The translations under genes and the position numbers were made by a program. Shown one piece after another: positions 19,627 through 27,330 of a stretch of DNA of 53,175 bases (position 1 is its first letter; each line of letters opens with the position of its first letter). The notes under the pieces were generated by a model that did no database searches, was not told the origin of the DNA, and saw only the letters and a list, made by a program, of their open reading frames with translations. The stretch covers positions 1-53,175 of the forward strand of contig CAJXKO010000010.1 of the NCBI GenBank assembly GCA_913055845.1, written 5' to 3'. This DNA comes from an uncultured Bacteroidota bacterium (GTDB lineage: Bacteria; Bacteroidota; Rhodothermia; Rhodothermales; Salinibacteraceae).

Positions 19627-20166
19627 ATGGCTGAAGACCCGGATACGTTTCGTGCCACGATGCGGCGGGTGCCCTCTCCTGTCGTCGTGGTAACTGCTCA
19701 GGGGCCCCAAGAGGCCCGCGGCATTACGATCGGCTCATTTTCGAGTGTTGCGCTCGATCCACCCCTCGTAAGCTTCAATGTTGCCTGCGAGGCACGGATG
19801 CTTGACGTGATGGAGGCGTGTCAACGATTTGCCGTGCACGTGTTGGGGGAGGAACAGGCCCACCTTGCCAAGCAGTTCGCGGTGCCTGATTTAACGGGGC
19901 CGGAGCAGTTTGAGGCGGTACCTTACACGCGCGACCCGGACGGGACGCCCATTCTGGAGGGGGGGTCCGCCGTGCTCCGATGCCGGCCCCACGACTCGCT
20001 TCCGGCTGGCGATCATCGGCTCTACGTGGGACTCGTGGAAGAGGTGGAGCAGCGCCCGGACCGGGGGGCAGTTCTCTACTACAAGAGCAGCTACCGCGGC
20101 GTGGGCAACGAGCTGCGGTCCACCCGGTTGGCGCCCGTAAACCGTGTGTCCAGCGACTCGTCCTGA
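19627..20166 (+). CDS. Flavin reductase-like (FMN-binding split-barrel) protein
   Basis: 179 residues. The flavin reductase-like domain covers almost the whole chain: FRATMRRVPSPVVVVTA, GITIGSFSSVALDPPLVSFNV (the FMN-binding segment), FAVHVLGEEQAHLAKQFA and the late LYVGLVEEVEQ plus LYYKSSYRGVG. Relatives use FMN to reduce free flavin for a partner monooxygenase or act as flavoredoxins; the partner here is unknown, though an LLM-type flavin monooxygenase lies 30 kb away. The 3' end overlaps the convergent DUF2400 gene by 76 bp. Family call is firm; the specific reaction is not. Confidence 0.9.
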   Translation: MAEDPDTFRATMRRVPSPVVVVTAQGPQEARGITIGSFSSVALDPPLVSFNVACEARMLDVMEACQRFAVHVLGEEQAHLAKQFAVPDLTGPEQFEAVPYTRDPDGTPILEGGSAVLRCRPHDSLPAGDHRLYVGLVEEVEQRPDRGAVLYYKSSYRGVGNELRSTRLAPVNRVSSDSS

Positions 20167-20939
20167 GCTCCCACCCCAAAAAAGGCAAAGTCATAACGGG
20201 TGGGGTCCGACGAGCAGAAGTGCCGACAAATCGCTGTGAGGCGACGAACCGCCGTCCAGTCATTGCTTTTCCGCTCCAAGAGCCCCAGCGCACGTGCCTG
20301 ACGTCCCACGTGGACGTCGACCGGCAGCATCAGCTCCGACGGGTCGAGTACGGACCACAGATTCAGGTCAACCGGCCCCGGCCGCACCATCCAGCGTAGG
20401 TACATGTTGAGCCGCTTGCATGCGCTGCCCGCCTCGGGCCGCGCTAGGTGTTTGCGCAGGCGCTGTGGGGTGCTGTCGTTAATGGTGAGCAGCGTCGTGC
20501 TTACCCCCTGGATCATTGAAGCGACGGGCGACGCGTCTGCTTGATCCGTCGGGGGACGGTGCGCCGCGAAGAGGTTCTCTACGGTTTCGTGTCGGTCGAG
20601 CGCAGCGCATAGATTGGCGGTCAGCCAGCGCGCGTCGACGGGTTGAAAGGTGCGGTGGACGAACCCGTCGAGGGCATCGGCGTCGTGGTCTGGGTCAAAC
20701 GTCCGCACGAAGCGGTAGGGGGCGTAGTCCATGCGCTCACACAGTTCCTCCAGCTTGCGGAGCATCACGTCGCGCCGGCCCCAAGCTAGCAGCGCCGCGT
20801 ACAGCCCAATGACGGCCTGGTCGCGCGGGTCATTGAACGCGTGCGGGATGGAAATGGGATCGTCATCGATGAAGGCCGGCTGTTCGTGCCGGTCGACCAG
20901 CGTGTCGAGATACGCGTGCAGGGCGTCGAGGGAAGCCAC
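20091..20939 (-). CDS. DUF2400 / TIGR02757 family protein
   Basis: 282 residues from a GTG at 20939; the frame is open to 21074 but the extra residues are Arg/Pro-rich and overlap the neighbouring gene. TIGR02757 proteins are conserved in Bacteroidota and look like helix-hairpin-helix DNA-glycosylase relatives, without a proven activity. Diagnostic parts are DDPISIPHAFNDPRDQAVIGLYAA followed by LAWGRRDVML, KRLNMYLRWMVRP, and LMLPVDVHVGRQARALGLL, where the Asp-Val-His resembles the catalytic VDTHV stretch of Nth. The last 25 residues run past the usual family end and overlap the flavin reductase gene. Confidence 0.82.
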   Translation of the reverse strand: MASLDALHAYLDTLVDRHEQPAFIDDDPISIPHAFNDPRDQAVIGLYAALLAWGRRDVMLRKLEELCERMDYAPYRFVRTFDPDHDADALDGFVHRTFQPVDARWLTANLCAALDRHETVENLFAAHRPPTDQADASPVASMIQGVSTTLLTINDSTPQRLRKHLARPEAGSACKRLNMYLRWMVRPGPVDLNLWSVLDPSELMLPVDVHVGRQARALGLLERKSNDWTAVRRLTAICRHFCSSDPTRYDFAFFGVGAQDESLDTRFTGANRVDRSSLPTPR

Positions 20940-21039
20940 AAACGTGCATTTAGGCCTTGTTGGAACGCTGCGCCGTACCCGGACGCGAAGGCGAGAGGGA
21001 CGTTCCGAGCACAGGGAGGGGAGAGCACCGTGCGGGGCT

Positions 21040-21870
21040 TCATGGGACCGGGGTGGTTCCCTCCGCATCTCCACGCTTCCGTAACCGATTGGCCGCGTAG
21101 GCCGCGCCCGCTGCCGCCAGCCACCCGAGACCGCCGTCCACTGGTACCTGGGGCGGACTGTCGGGGGGGGCGGGAGGGGACCCCGACGATCGCTGGCGAG
21201 GATTGGGGGACGACCCGGATGGGGCGGAACTAGATGCCGAGGTGTGCTCTGCGCTGGGCTGTTGTGCAGATTTATTCGTCCGGCCCAGATGGTCCAGGGT
21301 GCTGCTCAGTGCCCGAACTTGACGTCTGATCGTAGACGCTTCCGACTGCCACGAGGTGCTCTTCCGCGGGCCTCTGGAGTCGAGAGTGGAGGACAGCGGG
21401 GCGCGATCCATATCTGCAGTCCCGCTGGGGACGGACGCCGAGCCGTTGTCCGCCAGGTGTCGGTCTGCTGGTTTGGAATTGGCGTTGGGGGCAGGGCCAA
21501 GGTTGGCGTGGCTCAGGTCTGGATTCAGGTCATACAGTTCCGGGGTGGGAGACGGTGGGGGGGCAACTGGCGTGTTGGATTTGGGGAGGGCTGGAAGGCG
21601 CCCGAATGTTTGTGGGGTGGGCCGTGCCCGACGAGGGCGCTCTCGGGGTGGAGGAGTGGAGGCACGCCTTCGGGCGGAGCGACGAGCCTCAGCGGGGGCC
21701 TCTGTTTTGAACTGCACCTCCGCTAGCCGAGTTCGGTGCCAGTCGGCAAGGGACCCGGCGGACGTAAACAGCAAATACACGGTGGCTCCCACGATGAAGC
21801 CTCCGCCAATGAGCACGGCGATGGCGATGGATAAGCTACGATCGGGACCGTACGGAGAGGGACCAGACAT
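21040..21870 (-). CDS. Pro-rich membrane protein with PVDGG C-terminal tail (long copy)
   Basis: 276 residues, no known domain. An N-terminal membrane helix (about 12-36, LSIAIAVLIGGGFIVGATVYLLF) is followed by a basic, Pro/Arg/Ser-rich, probably disordered stretch to about 240, with a short possible coiled-coil near ASTIRRQVRALSSTLDHLG. Near the C-terminus there is a QVPVDGG motif, a hydrophobic segment (LGWLAAAGAAYAAN) and a basic stop (RLRKR), exactly the plan of a C-terminal surface-sorting signal. The adjacent gene at 21946-22380 has the same 25-residue tail but an otherwise different sequence. Tails of this type in Bacteroidota are described as PID-CTERM-like, to my memory. Function unknown. 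Confidence 0.75.
   Translation of the reverse strand: MSGPSPYGPDRSLSIAIAVLIGGGFIVGATVYLLFTSAGSLADWHRTRLAEVQFKTEAPAEARRSARRRASTPPPRERPRRARPTPQTFGRLPALPKSNTPVAPPPSPTPELYDLNPDLSHANLGPAPNANSKPADRHLADNGSASVPSGTADMDRAPLSSTLDSRGPRKSTSWQSEASTIRRQVRALSSTLDHLGRTNKSAQQPSAEHTSASSSAPSGSSPNPRQRSSGSPPAPPDSPPQVPVDGGLGWLAAAGAAYAANRLRKRGDAEGTTPVP
21076..21150 (-). repeat. PVDGG tail, copy A (25 codons)
   Basis: This segment encodes the 25 residues starting QVPVDGGLGW and ending NRLRK. It matches 21973-22047 at every amino acid, yet the DNA differs at 16 of 75 positions in 15 codons, all silent. Confidence 0.9.
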
Positions 21871-21945
21871 GGAGTAGACGAGTTGTGTGGAAGTTAGGTG
21901 TGCCGGAAACCCGCCGACTGTGCAGGCTATGGGAGGGAACGATGC

Positions 21946-22380
21946 TTAGTCCTCTTCGGCCGTTGTGGACTGCTTCCGCAGTCGATTAGCAGCGTAAGCT
22001 GCGCCTGCGGCGGCCAGCCATCCAAGTCCACCATCGACTGGTACCTGCGATGGTGCAGCAGGCAGAGACGGGCCCTCGTTGGCGTGCTGCCTAGGAGCCG
22101 GCGCGCGCGGAGATGTCTCCGGCGCCATGGGGGAAGTTCCGGGACGGGTAGCCTCGGGGAGCTCCGCACCCGGAATTGATGGGGCGGATGGGCGGGGTCG
22201 AGTCTCCGGAGTACGCGACCCATTCCCCAAGTGCGATGGGGGCGGATGCGTGGAATGCAGGGACTCAGTCCCGTGCTGTGACTGTGCGAGAGCAAAATCG
22301 CAAGGCATAATTATGAGGCATAGACCCAGCAGTCCGGCCGGGAGGATAGATCGAGAACGATAAGCGGAGACGCTAAACAT
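21946..22380 (-). CDS. Secreted Pro-rich protein with PVDGG C-terminal tail (short copy)
   Basis: 144 residues. A classical signal peptide (ILPAGLLGLCLIIMPCDFALAQS, cleaved after ALA) leads into a short Pro/Ser/Thr/His-rich linker of about 75 residues without any recognised domain. The C-terminal part carries the QVPVDGG motif, a hydrophobic stretch and basic RLRKQ, followed by an acidic end. The tail is identical over 25 residues to that of the next gene downstream (21040-21870). With the signal peptide and sorting-type tail occupying much of the chain, it looks like a small surface peptide. It sits 59 bp after the T9SS cargo gene and 75 bp before the long copy, all on one strand, so the three may be co-transcribed. 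Confidence 0.75.
   Translation of the reverse strand: MFSVSAYRSRSILPAGLLGLCLIIMPCDFALAQSQHGTESLHSTHPPPSHLGNGSRTPETRPRPSAPSIPGAELPEATRPGTSPMAPETSPRAPAPRQHANEGPSLPAAPSQVPVDGGLGWLAAAGAAYAANRLRKQSTTAEED
21973..22047 (-). repeat. PVDGG tail, copy B (25 codons)
   Basis: Second copy of the 25-residue tail, protein-identical to 21076-21150 but with synonymous changes in 15 codons. Confidence 0.9.
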
Positions 22381-22439: not shown

Positions 22440-25400
22440 TTACCGCACGACCGTAATGCGACGGGTTTTCTGGAACTGATCGCCGTTGGCTCGCAGGAGA
22501 TACAGCCCGCTGGAGAGGGTTTCCGCGTCCACTCGGAGAGCATGGGCGCGGTCGGGAGCGAGAGGGCCCTCGTGCACGGTGCGCACACGCCGACCTAGCA
22601 CGTCGTAGAGGGCAATCGTCACGGACTGCTTCTCCCGGACACGGACCGAGACCTCGGCACGGCTCTGTACCGGGTTGGGCGCGACGGCCACCTTTGCGGC
22701 CGCCTTGAGTCGCACCTGCACCGCCACCGTGTCACTGCGGGTCGCCGTTCCGTCGAGGTCCATCTGCCGTAATCGGAACACGTGCCGGCCTGGGTCCAGT
22801 GGATTGGTGTGAAAGCGGTATCGCTGGGGGGTATTGGTGGTGCCGTGGCCCTCCACGAAGCCCACGGACGTGAACTGTGTCCCCTCCGGTCCGCGGTGTT
22901 CGACGTGGAAACCAGCGTTATTTGTCTCACTAGCCGTGGTCCACGTGAGCCGTGCCGTCTCGCCACCGGCCGTGGCGTTGAGTCGGGCAAGCTCCACTGG
23001 AATAGGATTAGGGTGCACCGTGAGCGTAAATCGGGCGCTGTCCGACTGCGCCTTTGTGCGGATCTGCTTCGGCGTCTTCAGCGGCGAGCGTGGGCTGGGC
23101 ACCGACTGTGTCTTTGAGGTGGGCAGCGTAAACGCGTAGGAGGTGTGCACCCGGAGATTGATGGTCGAGTCCGAGACGGCGTCGTGCAGCGCGAGACTCC
23201 AGCCGTCCGGCACATTTGTCCAGGTGGGCCAGCTTAGCTGAAGGACCTCGAGTGGGGCGGTGCCCTGCAGCTGGAGAGAAAGAGGGAGTTCAATACCCTC
23301 CTCCGGCAGAGTGGACGGAATGGAGGACACCGACTGCAGGCGCAGTTTCCCGTCCACAGAGTCGCGGAAAGCCGCCGTGGCGTAGCGGCCCGCGAGAGGT
23401 GTCAGCTTCGAGGCGTCGTGCACGTCCCAGCCAGGGGTGGCGCCGTCCGGGGCATGAAGGAGCAGTGCTTCGTCGCGGGTGAGCTCCGAGCCGTCTTCGT
23501 CTTGACCCACGAGCCTGAACTCGATTCGTGGCGGGGCGTCCTCGACCGTTTTTAAATCGATTGGGTCGATACGGCGGCCCCCAGCATCGAAAGTGAGGGA
23601 AGAGGTGCCACCGGTGGTTTTCTCTACAAAAAATCCCTGGTACGGGCTCAGGAAGTCGTCGGCTGTGTAGGGGGCTGTAATCAGATCGTAGTTCCCATCG
23701 GCCGGGTCGTACACTTGCACTGTTGTATTGAAGTCCGTGCCGCCCGTCTCGATGCTAGTTCCCCCTTGTTCGATGCTTGCCGGATCGAAAGACTGACCAT
23801 ATGGAGTGCCGAGCAGATGAAAGCCCTCCCCCAAGGATCCGGTCGTCACGTCGTTCGTGCGGGGGACTCCGGGTACACCAAGCGTAAACGGTGGTGTATC
23901 AGTGAATTTTGTCTGGGCGGTGTCAAAAACGTACCAGATGTACCCCTGTCCACCGCCCGTCAGGTCTTCGTCCGCGGAGAAACTCGCGTCCCAGTCGGTT
24001 CCACTATCCGGGCCGCCAGGCCACCGGTAGAGGTTTGCTGCGGCATTGGGGAAGTGGCCGTCCACTCCTTGGACGAGACTGACCTTCGCGAGGGTGTCGG
24101 CGTTGACGCCGGCCACAGGGGCCGACAACATACGCCACCCCGCCCCGCCGGTAATCTCGGCGGTGGGCTGGAGGGACTGTTTTGCCCCAGTGCGACCGGG
24201 GGAACCCGGATCTCCACTTCCACTGCCGTCCTGTGTGAACCCACGCTCCCGCCGCGGGGTCGTCGTCCAGTTGGCGCCGTCGTTGTTTTGCGTAGTGCCC
24301 GTGAACACGATGGCAGCGTCGGAATTTTCCGGCCACGGATTCGAGTCCGTGTAGGTCACCTCGTCGACCACGTTGCCTTGCGGATCCAATATTTGGACCG
24401 TCGATCCTCCATTTACGAGCGAGATTTCATCGACGTAGTCCTCGTTACAATTTCTGATGCCTCCATTTGCTGCCACGTCATCGTCTCTGCAAAGGACAAC
24501 GGATCCTCGTGGAGGAATTGTGGCAGAAAGACTTTCGTCTTGATCCCCATCCACGTCGAGCGTCCATCCAGCGCCGAGATTAATTGAATTCAATGTCGCG
24601 TTGTATAACTCAATGTATTCAGCGTCCTCATCCGACGCGGAGGGAGCGGGCATTAGCTCCGTAATCAGCAGGTCGCCGTTGTGCTCGCCTACGTCGTCCT
24701 CAACAGCGAGGTCGACGTGGGAGGGGGCGTCGATGAACGCGTTTCCGTCGGACGAAAGGTTCTCAAGGACGAACTGAGCCGCTTCCCGGCCTTCCGCGCC
24801 GTCGTTTTGGTTGAGGTCCAGGTTGAGCGTCTTCGTATCCCCGTCGGACGCGTTCGATGGGAAGGTGACCGTCGTCGTGGTATCTGAACTCGGAAAGCTG
24901 CTGGTAAAGTCGGCCTGATCGGTACTGCTGTTCGCGTCGTCAAACGTGACGTCCACATCCACCTCATTTCCGTCGGGATTGGAGATCTCAACAGTGAGGG
25001 CTGAGGTGCTGTCCGCCTCGTTTATGGTGCCGGTTGCACTTGAGAACTGGACCGCAACTGGGGTCACGTCCGGGGTGGGCGTTAGGTCCAAGTTGTTGAG
25101 GGCGAGTTCGTCGCGCGACCCGCTCCCGCTCGCATCGTCCGACCGGAACTGAATGAAGATGCACTCTCCGTCTGAAATGCTAACGCCGGAAACGGTTGTG
25201 CTTCGCGATCTGATTTCCCACGAGGGATTGCTGTCGCTAGCTTCAGGAGAGGTGAAGTTCAGATCCGAGAGCACCGTAAATTCGTCCTCCGATGGAGCCG
25301 TGCCGCAGGCGCCACTTGTATAGGCAGAGTTAAATGAGTTGGCTCGCTCCTCGTCGTTGAAGACCCCGATATCGTACGACAGGTCAAATTTCGTAATTTC

Positions 25401-25841
25401 ATTTCCCGTCTTGTTCTCGTACTGCACCACGAACGTCCCGGACGTAAAATCGTCGCCTCCTGGTTGCACACCGAGACTATAGTTGTCGGTGGCGATGTCG
25501 AAGGCATAAATCCCGCCCGTTGCCTCTCCGCCTACGCTTTCACCGCGCGCAAAGTCCAAGGAGTCCGCCACGTCGCCAAACTCCATGTCTCCATTGCTGA
25601 GTCCCTTGGCAATGAACGCGTTGGAATTCAATTGTCCAGACGAGGGAGTTGGAGCAAAACCATCGCCCCGAAAGTCATCAAAGTCTTTGCTCACCTCCAC
25701 GCCGCTGGTAGACAGGTCAATCTGTCCGTGCGCCGCTCGGGGCACGGTCACGGAAAAGGCGAGGAGCGCGGTCAGTAGACCGAGTCTCCACACGGGCAAC
25801 GACGACAGTAAGGCGAATCGGTGCAGGCGCAGACGCATCAT
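22440..25841 (-). CDS. Secreted lamin-tail-domain protein with T9SS C-terminal sorting domain
   Basis: 1133 residues from the ATG at 25841, which gives a good signal peptide (LGLLTALLAFSVTVPRAAHGQ). The ectodomain starts with a beta-rich region (about 25-260). A Calx-beta-like domain (about 265-380, with INEADSTSALTVEISNPDG) follows, then a lamin-tail domain (about 387-530, GDLLITELMPAPSA and DAEYIELYN). A fibronectin-like repeat is at about 950-1045 (TWTTASETNNAGFHVEHRG and FRLRQMDLDGT). The last 80 residues form a type-A T9SS sorting domain: APNPVQSRAEVSV, VTIALYDVLGRRVRTV and GLYLLRANG. This predicts export across the outer membrane by the GldKLMN-type system encoded at 39-43 kb. Lamin-tail domains occur in secreted nucleases and adhesins, but no nuclease domain is visible here. 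Confidence 0.9.
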   Translation of the reverse strand: MMRLRLHRFALLSSLPVWRLGLLTALLAFSVTVPRAAHGQIDLSTSGVEVSKDFDDFRGDGFAPTPSSGQLNSNAFIAKGLSNGDMEFGDVADSLDFARGESVGGEATGGIYAFDIATDNYSLGVQPGGDDFTSGTFVVQYENKTGNEITKFDLSYDIGVFNDEERANSFNSAYTSGACGTAPSEDEFTVLSDLNFTSPEASDSNPSWEIRSRSTTVSGVSISDGECIFIQFRSDDASGSGSRDELALNNLDLTPTPDVTPVAVQFSSATGTINEADSTSALTVEISNPDGNEVDVDVTFDDANSSTDQADFTSSFPSSDTTTTVTFPSNASDGDTKTLNLDLNQNDGAEGREAAQFVLENLSSDGNAFIDAPSHVDLAVEDDVGEHNGDLLITELMPAPSASDEDAEYIELYNATLNSINLGAGWTLDVDGDQDESLSATIPPRGSVVLCRDDDVAANGGIRNCNEDYVDEISLVNGGSTVQILDPQGNVVDEVTYTDSNPWPENSDAAIVFTGTTQNNDGANWTTTPRRERGFTQDGSGSGDPGSPGRTGAKQSLQPTAEITGGAGWRMLSAPVAGVNADTLAKVSLVQGVDGHFPNAAANLYRWPGGPDSGTDWDASFSADEDLTGGGQGYIWYVFDTAQTKFTDTPPFTLGVPGVPRTNDVTTGSLGEGFHLLGTPYGQSFDPASIEQGGTSIETGGTDFNTTVQVYDPADGNYDLITAPYTADDFLSPYQGFFVEKTTGGTSSLTFDAGGRRIDPIDLKTVEDAPPRIEFRLVGQDEDGSELTRDEALLLHAPDGATPGWDVHDASKLTPLAGRYATAAFRDSVDGKLRLQSVSSIPSTLPEEGIELPLSLQLQGTAPLEVLQLSWPTWTNVPDGWSLALHDAVSDSTINLRVHTSYAFTLPTSKTQSVPSPRSPLKTPKQIRTKAQSDSARFTLTVHPNPIPVELARLNATAGGETARLTWTTASETNNAGFHVEHRGPEGTQFTSVGFVEGHGTTNTPQRYRFHTNPLDPGRHVFRLRQMDLDGTATRSDTVAVQVRLKAAAKVAVAPNPVQSRAEVSVRVREKQSVTIALYDVLGRRVRTVHEGPLAPDRAHALRVDAETLSSGLYLLRANGDQFQKTRRITVVR

Positions 25842-26319
25842 AGTTGAAAGAGAAGGAACCGGTCGGGAGAATCGGAGATGGCAGCGTCGGGGAGGGGGAC
25901 GCTTCAAAAGTCTCAGTCAATTCAAAGTTTTGAAACGAAGTACATTTAAATTCTCGCGTCTGTTTTCCTCTCCGTTTTTCTCAGTGGGGCACGGATGGAA
26001 TTTTTTAAAATAGGATATCCAAAAATCTCACAAATACACATAACCTTTGAGAATATAGAAAGTCAAGAAAAGGGCGACGAGCTGCCGGTGGGCTACGGAG
26101 GTAGCTTGGCGCTCTGCCCCCATTATGCCGCGCTTTGCCCGGACGTTTTATCCGTACGTCCGGGTAGCAGGAAGCGAAATATGTCCTTGCCTTCTGGAAA
26201 ACTTGGTATGTCTCCCGGTCTCCTACCGCGCTGTATTGCCATTCCCCTCTTCGAGATGCATTATTTAAGCTAGAATTATGATTCGATAATAGCGTCCCGA
26301 ATCAACTCGCGCCCCGAAC
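25842..26319. other. AT-rich divergent region between T9SS cargo gene and accA
   Basis: 478 bases, clearly less GC-rich than the genes, especially 25920-26070. It should hold the promoters of both neighbours. An 8-bp inverted repeat, CCCGGACG (26138-26145) and CGTCCGGG (26157-26164) with an 11-nt spacer, is present about 160 bp before accA. A 92-codon frame at 25995-26273 has no protein-like features and is not called. Confidence 0.45.
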
Positions 26320-27330
26320 ATGCCCGACGACGAACACCTGCTGGACTTTGAAAAGCCCCTCGTCGAGCTTGAGGACAAGCTCACGGAGATGCGGGAGCTC
26401 AATGCGGAGACGCAGGACGACCTCTCCACCGAAATCGAAGCCTTGGAAGACCGGGTGGAGCGGCTACGCACGTCCATCTACCGCAATCTCACCCGGTGGC
26501 AGCGGGTGCAGATTGCCCGTCATCCGCAGCGTCCCTACACGCTCGATCACATTGAGGCGTTGACGAAGGACTTCACGGAGCTCCGTGGTGACCGCAAGTA
26601 CGGCGACGACCGCTCCATCGTCGGCGGTCTGGCGCAGTTCCAGGGGGGGCACTTCGGGTATCATGACCGCACCGTCATGATTCTGGGGCACCAGAAGGGC
26701 CGCGACACGAAAGAGCGCAAGTACCGTCGCTTCGGCATGCCCAATCCTGAGGGGTATCGCAAGGCGGAGCGGCTGATGAAGATGGCCGCCAAGTTCAACA
26801 AGCCGGTCGTGGTACTGCTCGACACGCCCGGTGCGTATCCGGGCATGGGGGCTGAGGAGCGGGGGCAGGCCGAGGCAATCGCGCACAACCTCTTCGAGAT
26901 GGCGCGTCTGGAGACGCCCATCGTAGTCGTCGTCATTGGGGAAGGAGCGTCTGGAGGAGCCCTCGGCGTAGGGCTGGGCGACCGCATTCTCATGCTCGAA
27001 AACGCCTGGTACTCGGTGATCGCGCCGGAGAGCTGCTCGCAAATCCTCTGGCGCTCGTGGGATCACAAGGAGGACGCGGCGCAGGCGCTCAAGCTTACGG
27101 CCACAGACCTGACGGAGGTGGGCATCGTCGATGAGATCGTGCCGGAGCCGGTGGGTGGGGCCCACCGGGACCCCGAGTCCACCTACCAGTCCGTGGGCAT
27201 GGCCGTGGCCAGTGCCCTCGACGAACTCGATGACCTCGATTCCCAAACGCTCCTCGACCGTCGACTCGAAAAGTTCGACGCCCTCGGCGCCTACGAGTCG
27301 GCCGCGCCGATGGCCTCCGCGCAAGAGTAG
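26320..27330 (+). CDS. accA: Acetyl-CoA carboxylase carboxyltransferase, alpha subunit
   Basis: 336 residues, full length. With AccD it transfers CO2 from carboxybiotin to acetyl-CoA, giving malonyl-CoA for fatty-acid synthesis. The N-terminal coiled segment ([18 protein letters not shown]) is followed by the AccA core: [58 protein letters not shown]-type text ([19 protein letters not shown]), [40 protein letters not shown] and [15 protein letters not shown]. The C-terminus is acidic. It lies 42 bp upstream of a thioesterase gene on the same strand, probably one transcript. accD is not in the window. Confidence 0.97.

Follow-up and report, generated by a model that had tools for sequence, protein, structure and literature searches.

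Genes for proteins with a C-terminal PID-CTERM tail were repeatedly found paired with genes for type IX secretion system (T9SS) cargo or with porV, and the tail co-occurred with exosortase X (XrtX). In the window, i.e., the whole stretch of 53,175 nucleotides that was analyzed, two such tailed proteins, P1 and P2, are encoded in an operon-like layout with a predicted T9SS cargo protein. The tag itself is already catalogued and is not new; its pairing with type IX cargo is less expected and is the part worth following. The best explanation of the layout is that P1 and P2 are PID-CTERM proteins, putatively co-transcribed with the cargo gene. The features concerned are the following.

20091-21074, minus strand: conserved gene that flanks the cassette on one side, with a copy in 12 of 13 genus genomes
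21040-21870, minus strand: P1, open reading frame of 276 aa; N-terminal hydrophobic segment, Pro/Ser/Arg-rich low-complexity region of ~200 aa, PID-CTERM tail, and 11 further residues
21076-21150, minus strand: PID-CTERM tail of P1, QVPVDGGLGWLAAAGAAYAANRLRK, residues 241-265 of 276 (NF046080, 37.9 bits; cut-off, 26)
21946-22380, minus strand: P2, open reading frame of 144 aa; signal-peptide-like start, Pro-rich spacer, PID-CTERM tail, and 8 further residues
21973-22047, minus strand: PID-CTERM tail of P2, QVPVDGGLGWLAAAGAAYAANRLRK, residues 112-136 of 144 (NF046080, 38.5 bits; cut-off, 26)
22440-25907, minus strand: large secreted protein, 1155 aa from a TTG start (the true start may lie slightly inside)
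22449-22685, minus strand: C-terminal T9SS type A sorting domain of the large protein, residues 1075-1153
26320-27330, plus strand: conserved flanking gene at the other border, which adjoins the 20091-21074 gene where the cassette is absent

The tail stands at the extreme C-termini of the two adjacent proteins and consists of the motif PVDGG, a hydrophobic stretch, and a basic end. When recomputed, the figures of the first-pass annotation were reproduced: the tails are identical at 25 of 25 residues, and of the 75 bases that encode them 16 differ, spread over 15 codons, with every difference synonymous. A random single-base change in this sequence would be silent in ~28% of cases, which gives 16 silent changes out of 16 a P value of ~2e-9, and the ~21 silent sites of the tail are near saturation between the two genes. 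P1 and P2 are neighbors with the same orientation, as would be expected if recent duplication or gene conversion, and not selection, had made the tails identical. Either event would have equalized the silent sites too, and these have diverged without a single amino acid change, which reduces this explanation to a negligible probability. The remainder of the two proteins had been called unrelated, and this held: BLASTP with masking off aligned nothing but low-complexity stretches rich in Pro, Ser, and Arg (29% identity over 76 residues), a similarity of composition rather than clear homology. Judged by eye, the N-terminus of P2 is signal peptide like and that of P1 is signal anchor like, its hydrophobic segment being either a signal or an anchor.

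Both tails scored clearly above the curated cut-off of the PID_CTERM model, NCBIfam NF046080, and they are the only two such matches in the genome of the window (G000), a 3.25-Mb draft assembly with 172 contigs and a completeness of 94%. The match, the C-terminal position, and the three-part architecture agree with the earlier reading of the tail as a C-terminal sorting tag. Related genomes contain many other tailed proteins, and the tail was C-terminal in all matches inspected. One of these, at locus L124 (G166:C1:2167132-2167203, minus strand), is a 995-aa frame of a multispanning membrane protein that ends in the PID-like tail DVPIDGEVWVLLAGGLALAVGQLRRTWQVG; large proteins can thus carry the tail as well. 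The NCBIfam accessions of PID_CTERM (NF046080), exosortase X (NF046081), and the XrtX-associated membrane protein (NF046082) are consecutive, and we therefore infer that the curators treat the three as one system. P1 and P2 resemble this system in their tails, and relatives pair the tail with the same short exosortase; the assembly of the window differs in having no XrtX match. A homologue of the NF046082 protein follows XrtX in three genomes, scoring above the cut-off in G072 and below it in G273 and G045. The tails also share with the PEP-CTERM/EpsH system the succession of motif, hydrophobic helix, and basic end, as well as an exosortase that is encoded beside polysaccharide genes. They differ from it in carrying P-[IV]-D-G-G instead of PEP and in the enzyme, which is of the short XrtX/XrtF kind; no PEP-CTERM model was among the matches of the two tails at E ≤ 10.

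The cassette consists of the large gene, P2, and P1, in this order on the same strand and separated by 60 and 76 bp, respectively, an apparent three-gene operon with the large gene first. The large protein is a predicted T9SS type A cargo on the basis of its sorting domain (TIGR04183, 39.7 bits, cut-off 23; PF18962, 36.8 bits, cut-off 27), and it also contains a Lamin Tail Domain (PF00932, 61.1 bits). P1 and P2 themselves, unlike this first gene product, have no T9SS domain. The cargo gene lies outside positions 21040-22380, to which the first-pass annotation referred, and the T9SS link was absent from that annotation. As for the borders, the gene at 20091-21074 probably starts near position 20960 and is presumably DUF2400/TIGR02757-like; the gene at 26320-27330 we take to be accA-like.

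The cassette was found at the same place in G301, the metagenome-assembled genome (MAG) Bacteroidetes bacterium QS_3_64_15, which is the closest relative to have it, whereas G297 and G298 carry it elsewhere; in all three genomes the large gene again lies next to P2 and P1. When the genome collection was scanned with the large cargo protein, QS_3_64_15 was the one MAG matched. In five genomes (G147, G195, G199, G296, and G304) the cassette is absent and the flanking genes adjoin. Orthologues of P1 with a conserved N-terminus occur in G301, G297, and G298. In the P2 orthologues of G297 and G298, the tail is conserved at 22 of 25 residues and the body is only ~35 to 40% identical, a difference that speaks for selection on the tail. 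The P1 tail of these two genomes has decayed, as has the P2 tail of G301, where the P1 tail is changed at three positions; thus, the tag can be lost. The strong purifying selection claimed earlier is therefore upheld by the all-silent differences between P1 and P2, but the constraint is less rigid than had been supposed, the tail having decayed in some orthologues.

Gene neighborhoods were surveyed in relatives at 68 loci, each surrounding a PID-CTERM gene or XrtX; the loci were chosen from the stronger matches and are not independent. They yielded 67 PID-CTERM genes from 15 genera. For 54 of these, the gene immediately upstream is on the same strand and encodes a T9SS type A sorting domain. 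The gap between cargo and PID-CTERM gene is at most ~280 bp and usually less than 100 bp. The other 13 comprise four genes directly upstream of a T9SS-domain gene, three next to XrtX, and six near neither. T9SS-domain genes number 24 to 113 per genome in the six genomes counted, or ~1 to 3% of genes if about one gene per kb is assumed, and this low frequency excludes chance pairing. Most partners were called with our own profile built from genus proteins; the curated TIGR04183 model confirmed 10 of 10 upstream partners sampled and 5 of 6 further, more distant ones. The order cargo, PID-CTERM, and exosortase was found in G115 and G033. Most T9SS cargo genes have no PID-CTERM partner (in G139, there are 64 T9SS-domain matches and 4 PID-CTERM genes).

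In four genus members, a further PID-CTERM gene directly follows porV. The porV product of G299 matched the NF033710 equivalog at 293 bits (cut-off, 250). The loci are as follows.

L105:7596-9398 (G299): porV and PID-CTERM gene
L104:7756-9599 (G302): porV and PID-CTERM gene
L106:7818-9764 (G303): porV and PID-CTERM gene
L108:9229-10985 (G300): porV and PID-CTERM gene

The PID-CTERM genes near neither T9SS genes nor XrtX are those at L119, L125, L126, L127, L128, and L054, and such genes also occur in G029 and G107. L126 had been a candidate T9SS pair, was rejected when TIGR04183 did not confirm the partner, and is counted in this group. At L125 and L127 (G104 and G123, of one genus), the PID-CTERM gene lies between fumarase-like and alkaline-phosphatase-like genes and has no adjacent T9SS cargo gene; this setting possibly reflects a different use of the tag. 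At L037 and L038 (G029 and G107, of the same family but different genera), it lies beside a riboflavin-synthase-like gene, also without T9SS cargo, and a polyprenyl-synthase-like gene is nearby. A degenerate extra PID-CTERM copy with the motif ALINGG was found at L137:8815-9048, behind a second T9SS cargo gene, which suggests that partner genes undergo birth and decay.

The bodies of P1 and P2 are long and of low complexity, in contrast to the 60- to 80-aa microproteins of the relatives sampled. In 23 of these microproteins, only 11 to 15 residues separate the apparent signal peptide, whose cleavage site was placed by a simple A/G/S-Q rule, from the motif. Processing may therefore yield a peptide rather than a protein cargo of the conventional kind.

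Across the phylum, PID-CTERM proteins were present in 49 of 296 genomes. An XrtX/XrtF-type exosortase (E ≤ 1e-10) was found in 48 of these 49 (Fisher P of ~3e-29), and an exosortase scoring at least 150 bits in 39 of the 49, compared with 1 of the 247 genomes without PID-CTERM (G147; P of ~4e-38); these P values are indicative only, because the genomes are related. Another 41 genomes have an exosortase at E ≤ 1e-10 and no PID-CTERM match, so that the dependence is mainly one-way: the tail implies the enzyme. NF046081 matched above its cut-off of 170 bits in 36 of the 296 genomes. XrtX directly adjoins the PID-CTERM gene in G273, G072, G045, and G115 (loci L055, L057, L058, and L158), and in the genus of the window it adjoins wza/wzc-like polysaccharide genes. 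The XrtX-like proteins have invariant Cys, Arg, and His columns (C89, R130, and H149 in alignment A1), and a search of solved structures with the XrtX alignment gave no exosortase-like match. For most proteins scanned, the XrtF family of Flavobacterium johnsoniae (TIGR04128) was the next-best full-length model after XrtX; the XrtX proteins differ from that family in scoring below its cut-off.

The best reading of these patterns, and one that we consider probable, is that the PID-CTERM tag is processed by XrtX. Several observations count against the overall reading: the lack of an exosortase match in G000, the decayed and altered tails of G301, the many T9SS cargo genes with no PID-CTERM partner, the PID-CTERM genes near neither T9SS genes nor XrtX, and the presence of XrtX in G147 with no detectable tailed protein. 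Alternatively, the tail may be a membrane anchor only, which would make P1 and P2 inner-membrane proteins of two helices whose tail is conserved for membrane packing or partner binding and read by no protease. The lack of an exosortase match in their own assembly would fit such an anchor, as would the N-terminal hydrophobic segment of P1, which need not be cleaved. A helix alone, however, would not require an exact motif, its hydrophobic residues normally interchange freely, and the anchor would leave unexplained why XrtX accompanies the tail in 48 of 49 genomes and is its neighboring gene in several. We therefore regard a pure anchor as unlikely.

The sole PID-CTERM genome with no exosortase match is the draft of the window itself. 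None was found in G000 with PF09721, with the NF046081 XrtX model, or with an alignment of 14 XrtX-like sequences, and no XrtX match was found in G301. The claim that the tail is read by a processing enzyme is thus sustained by co-occurrence and by the gene order in some relatives, but no exosortase was found in the assembly that prompted it. A search for the XrtX locus of G000 by way of the XrtX-linked wza gene returned nothing closer than a distant copy (34%), which lies on a contig of 3.45 kb and has no exosortase beside it. The XrtX neighborhoods of the genus are often on small or broken contigs (4.8 kb in G297 and 9.5 kb in G303), which makes a gap plausible. An assembly gap is the most likely cause of the missing XrtX, loss being less probable, and we infer that the organism has the enzyme beyond its assembly. 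When the 14-sequence alignment was run against G000, G147, G195, and G199, G147 alone matched. The chromosome of G147 (3,551,823 bp), presumably that of Salinibacter ruber DSM 13855, carries XrtX at L051:9459-10046 within a sugar/polysaccharide cluster and encodes no detectable PID-CTERM protein.

Were XrtX lost recently in this lineage, the tails would be vestigial tags that have not had time to decay. The missing XrtX matches in both G000 and G301, the decaying tails of G301, and the five close relatives entirely without the cassette are all compatible with such a loss. On the other hand, silent sites near saturation with no amino acid change imply constraint until very recently, and both genomes are drafts (G000, ~94% complete; G301, 83%) in which, given the fragmented XrtX regions, a gap is plausible; we find vestigial tags improbable. 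Less probable still is that another intramembrane protease (a rhombosortase, a myxosortase, or a novel enzyme) reads the tail in this genome. Such a protease would account for conserved tails without an exosortase, and the tail of P2 does match MYXO-CTERM, with which it shares the three-part C-terminal build, at a subthreshold 11.7 bits (cut-off, 20). Yet the tail has no MYXO-CTERM cysteine, the GlyGly-CTERM model did not match either P1 or P2, and the pattern of co-occurrence favors XrtX.

Under processing by XrtX, P1 and P2 would be exported by Sec, after which the short hydrophobic tail, its basic end on the inside, would retain them in the inner membrane. XrtX would cut at or near PVDGG (P-[IV]-D-G-G), and the new C-terminus would probably be conjugated to a carrier from the neighboring polysaccharide pathway. 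Passages of the literature on exosortases describe these enzymes as generally thought to leave their substrates surface anchored and possibly conjugated (PMC11980579, PMC7468200). At the surface, the product would cooperate with the T9SS cargo whose gene immediately precedes its own. A functional partnership of PID-CTERM proteins with T9SS cargo is a serious possibility, to which we give somewhat less than even chances. More specifically, and a little more tentatively, a subset of T9SS cargo may have its own small PID-CTERM partner, from which XrtX would make a peptide or a conjugate for anchoring, docking, or licensing that cargo at the cell surface. PID-CTERM and XrtX may then serve type IX surface display as a dedicated accessory.

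The term PID-CTERM was found in none of the open-access papers searched, and the passages of open-access papers that combine T9SS and exosortases yielded no description of the gene pairing. As described in a study of F. johnsoniae, deletion of xrtF caused defects in colonization, biofilm, and zorb formation like those of porV, porU, porZ, and sprA mutants, and the authors deferred the substrates of XrtF to future work (PMC10936215). The pairing found here offers a testable reason for this likeness between the xrtF deletion and T9SS mutants, namely, that small exosortase substrates are encoded with type IX cargo and, in certain species, beside porV. The gene pairing suggests cooperation between two distinct systems of surface display. 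If this is true, sorting systems that have until now been regarded as independent would be joined, and this branch of the exosortases would gain substrates.
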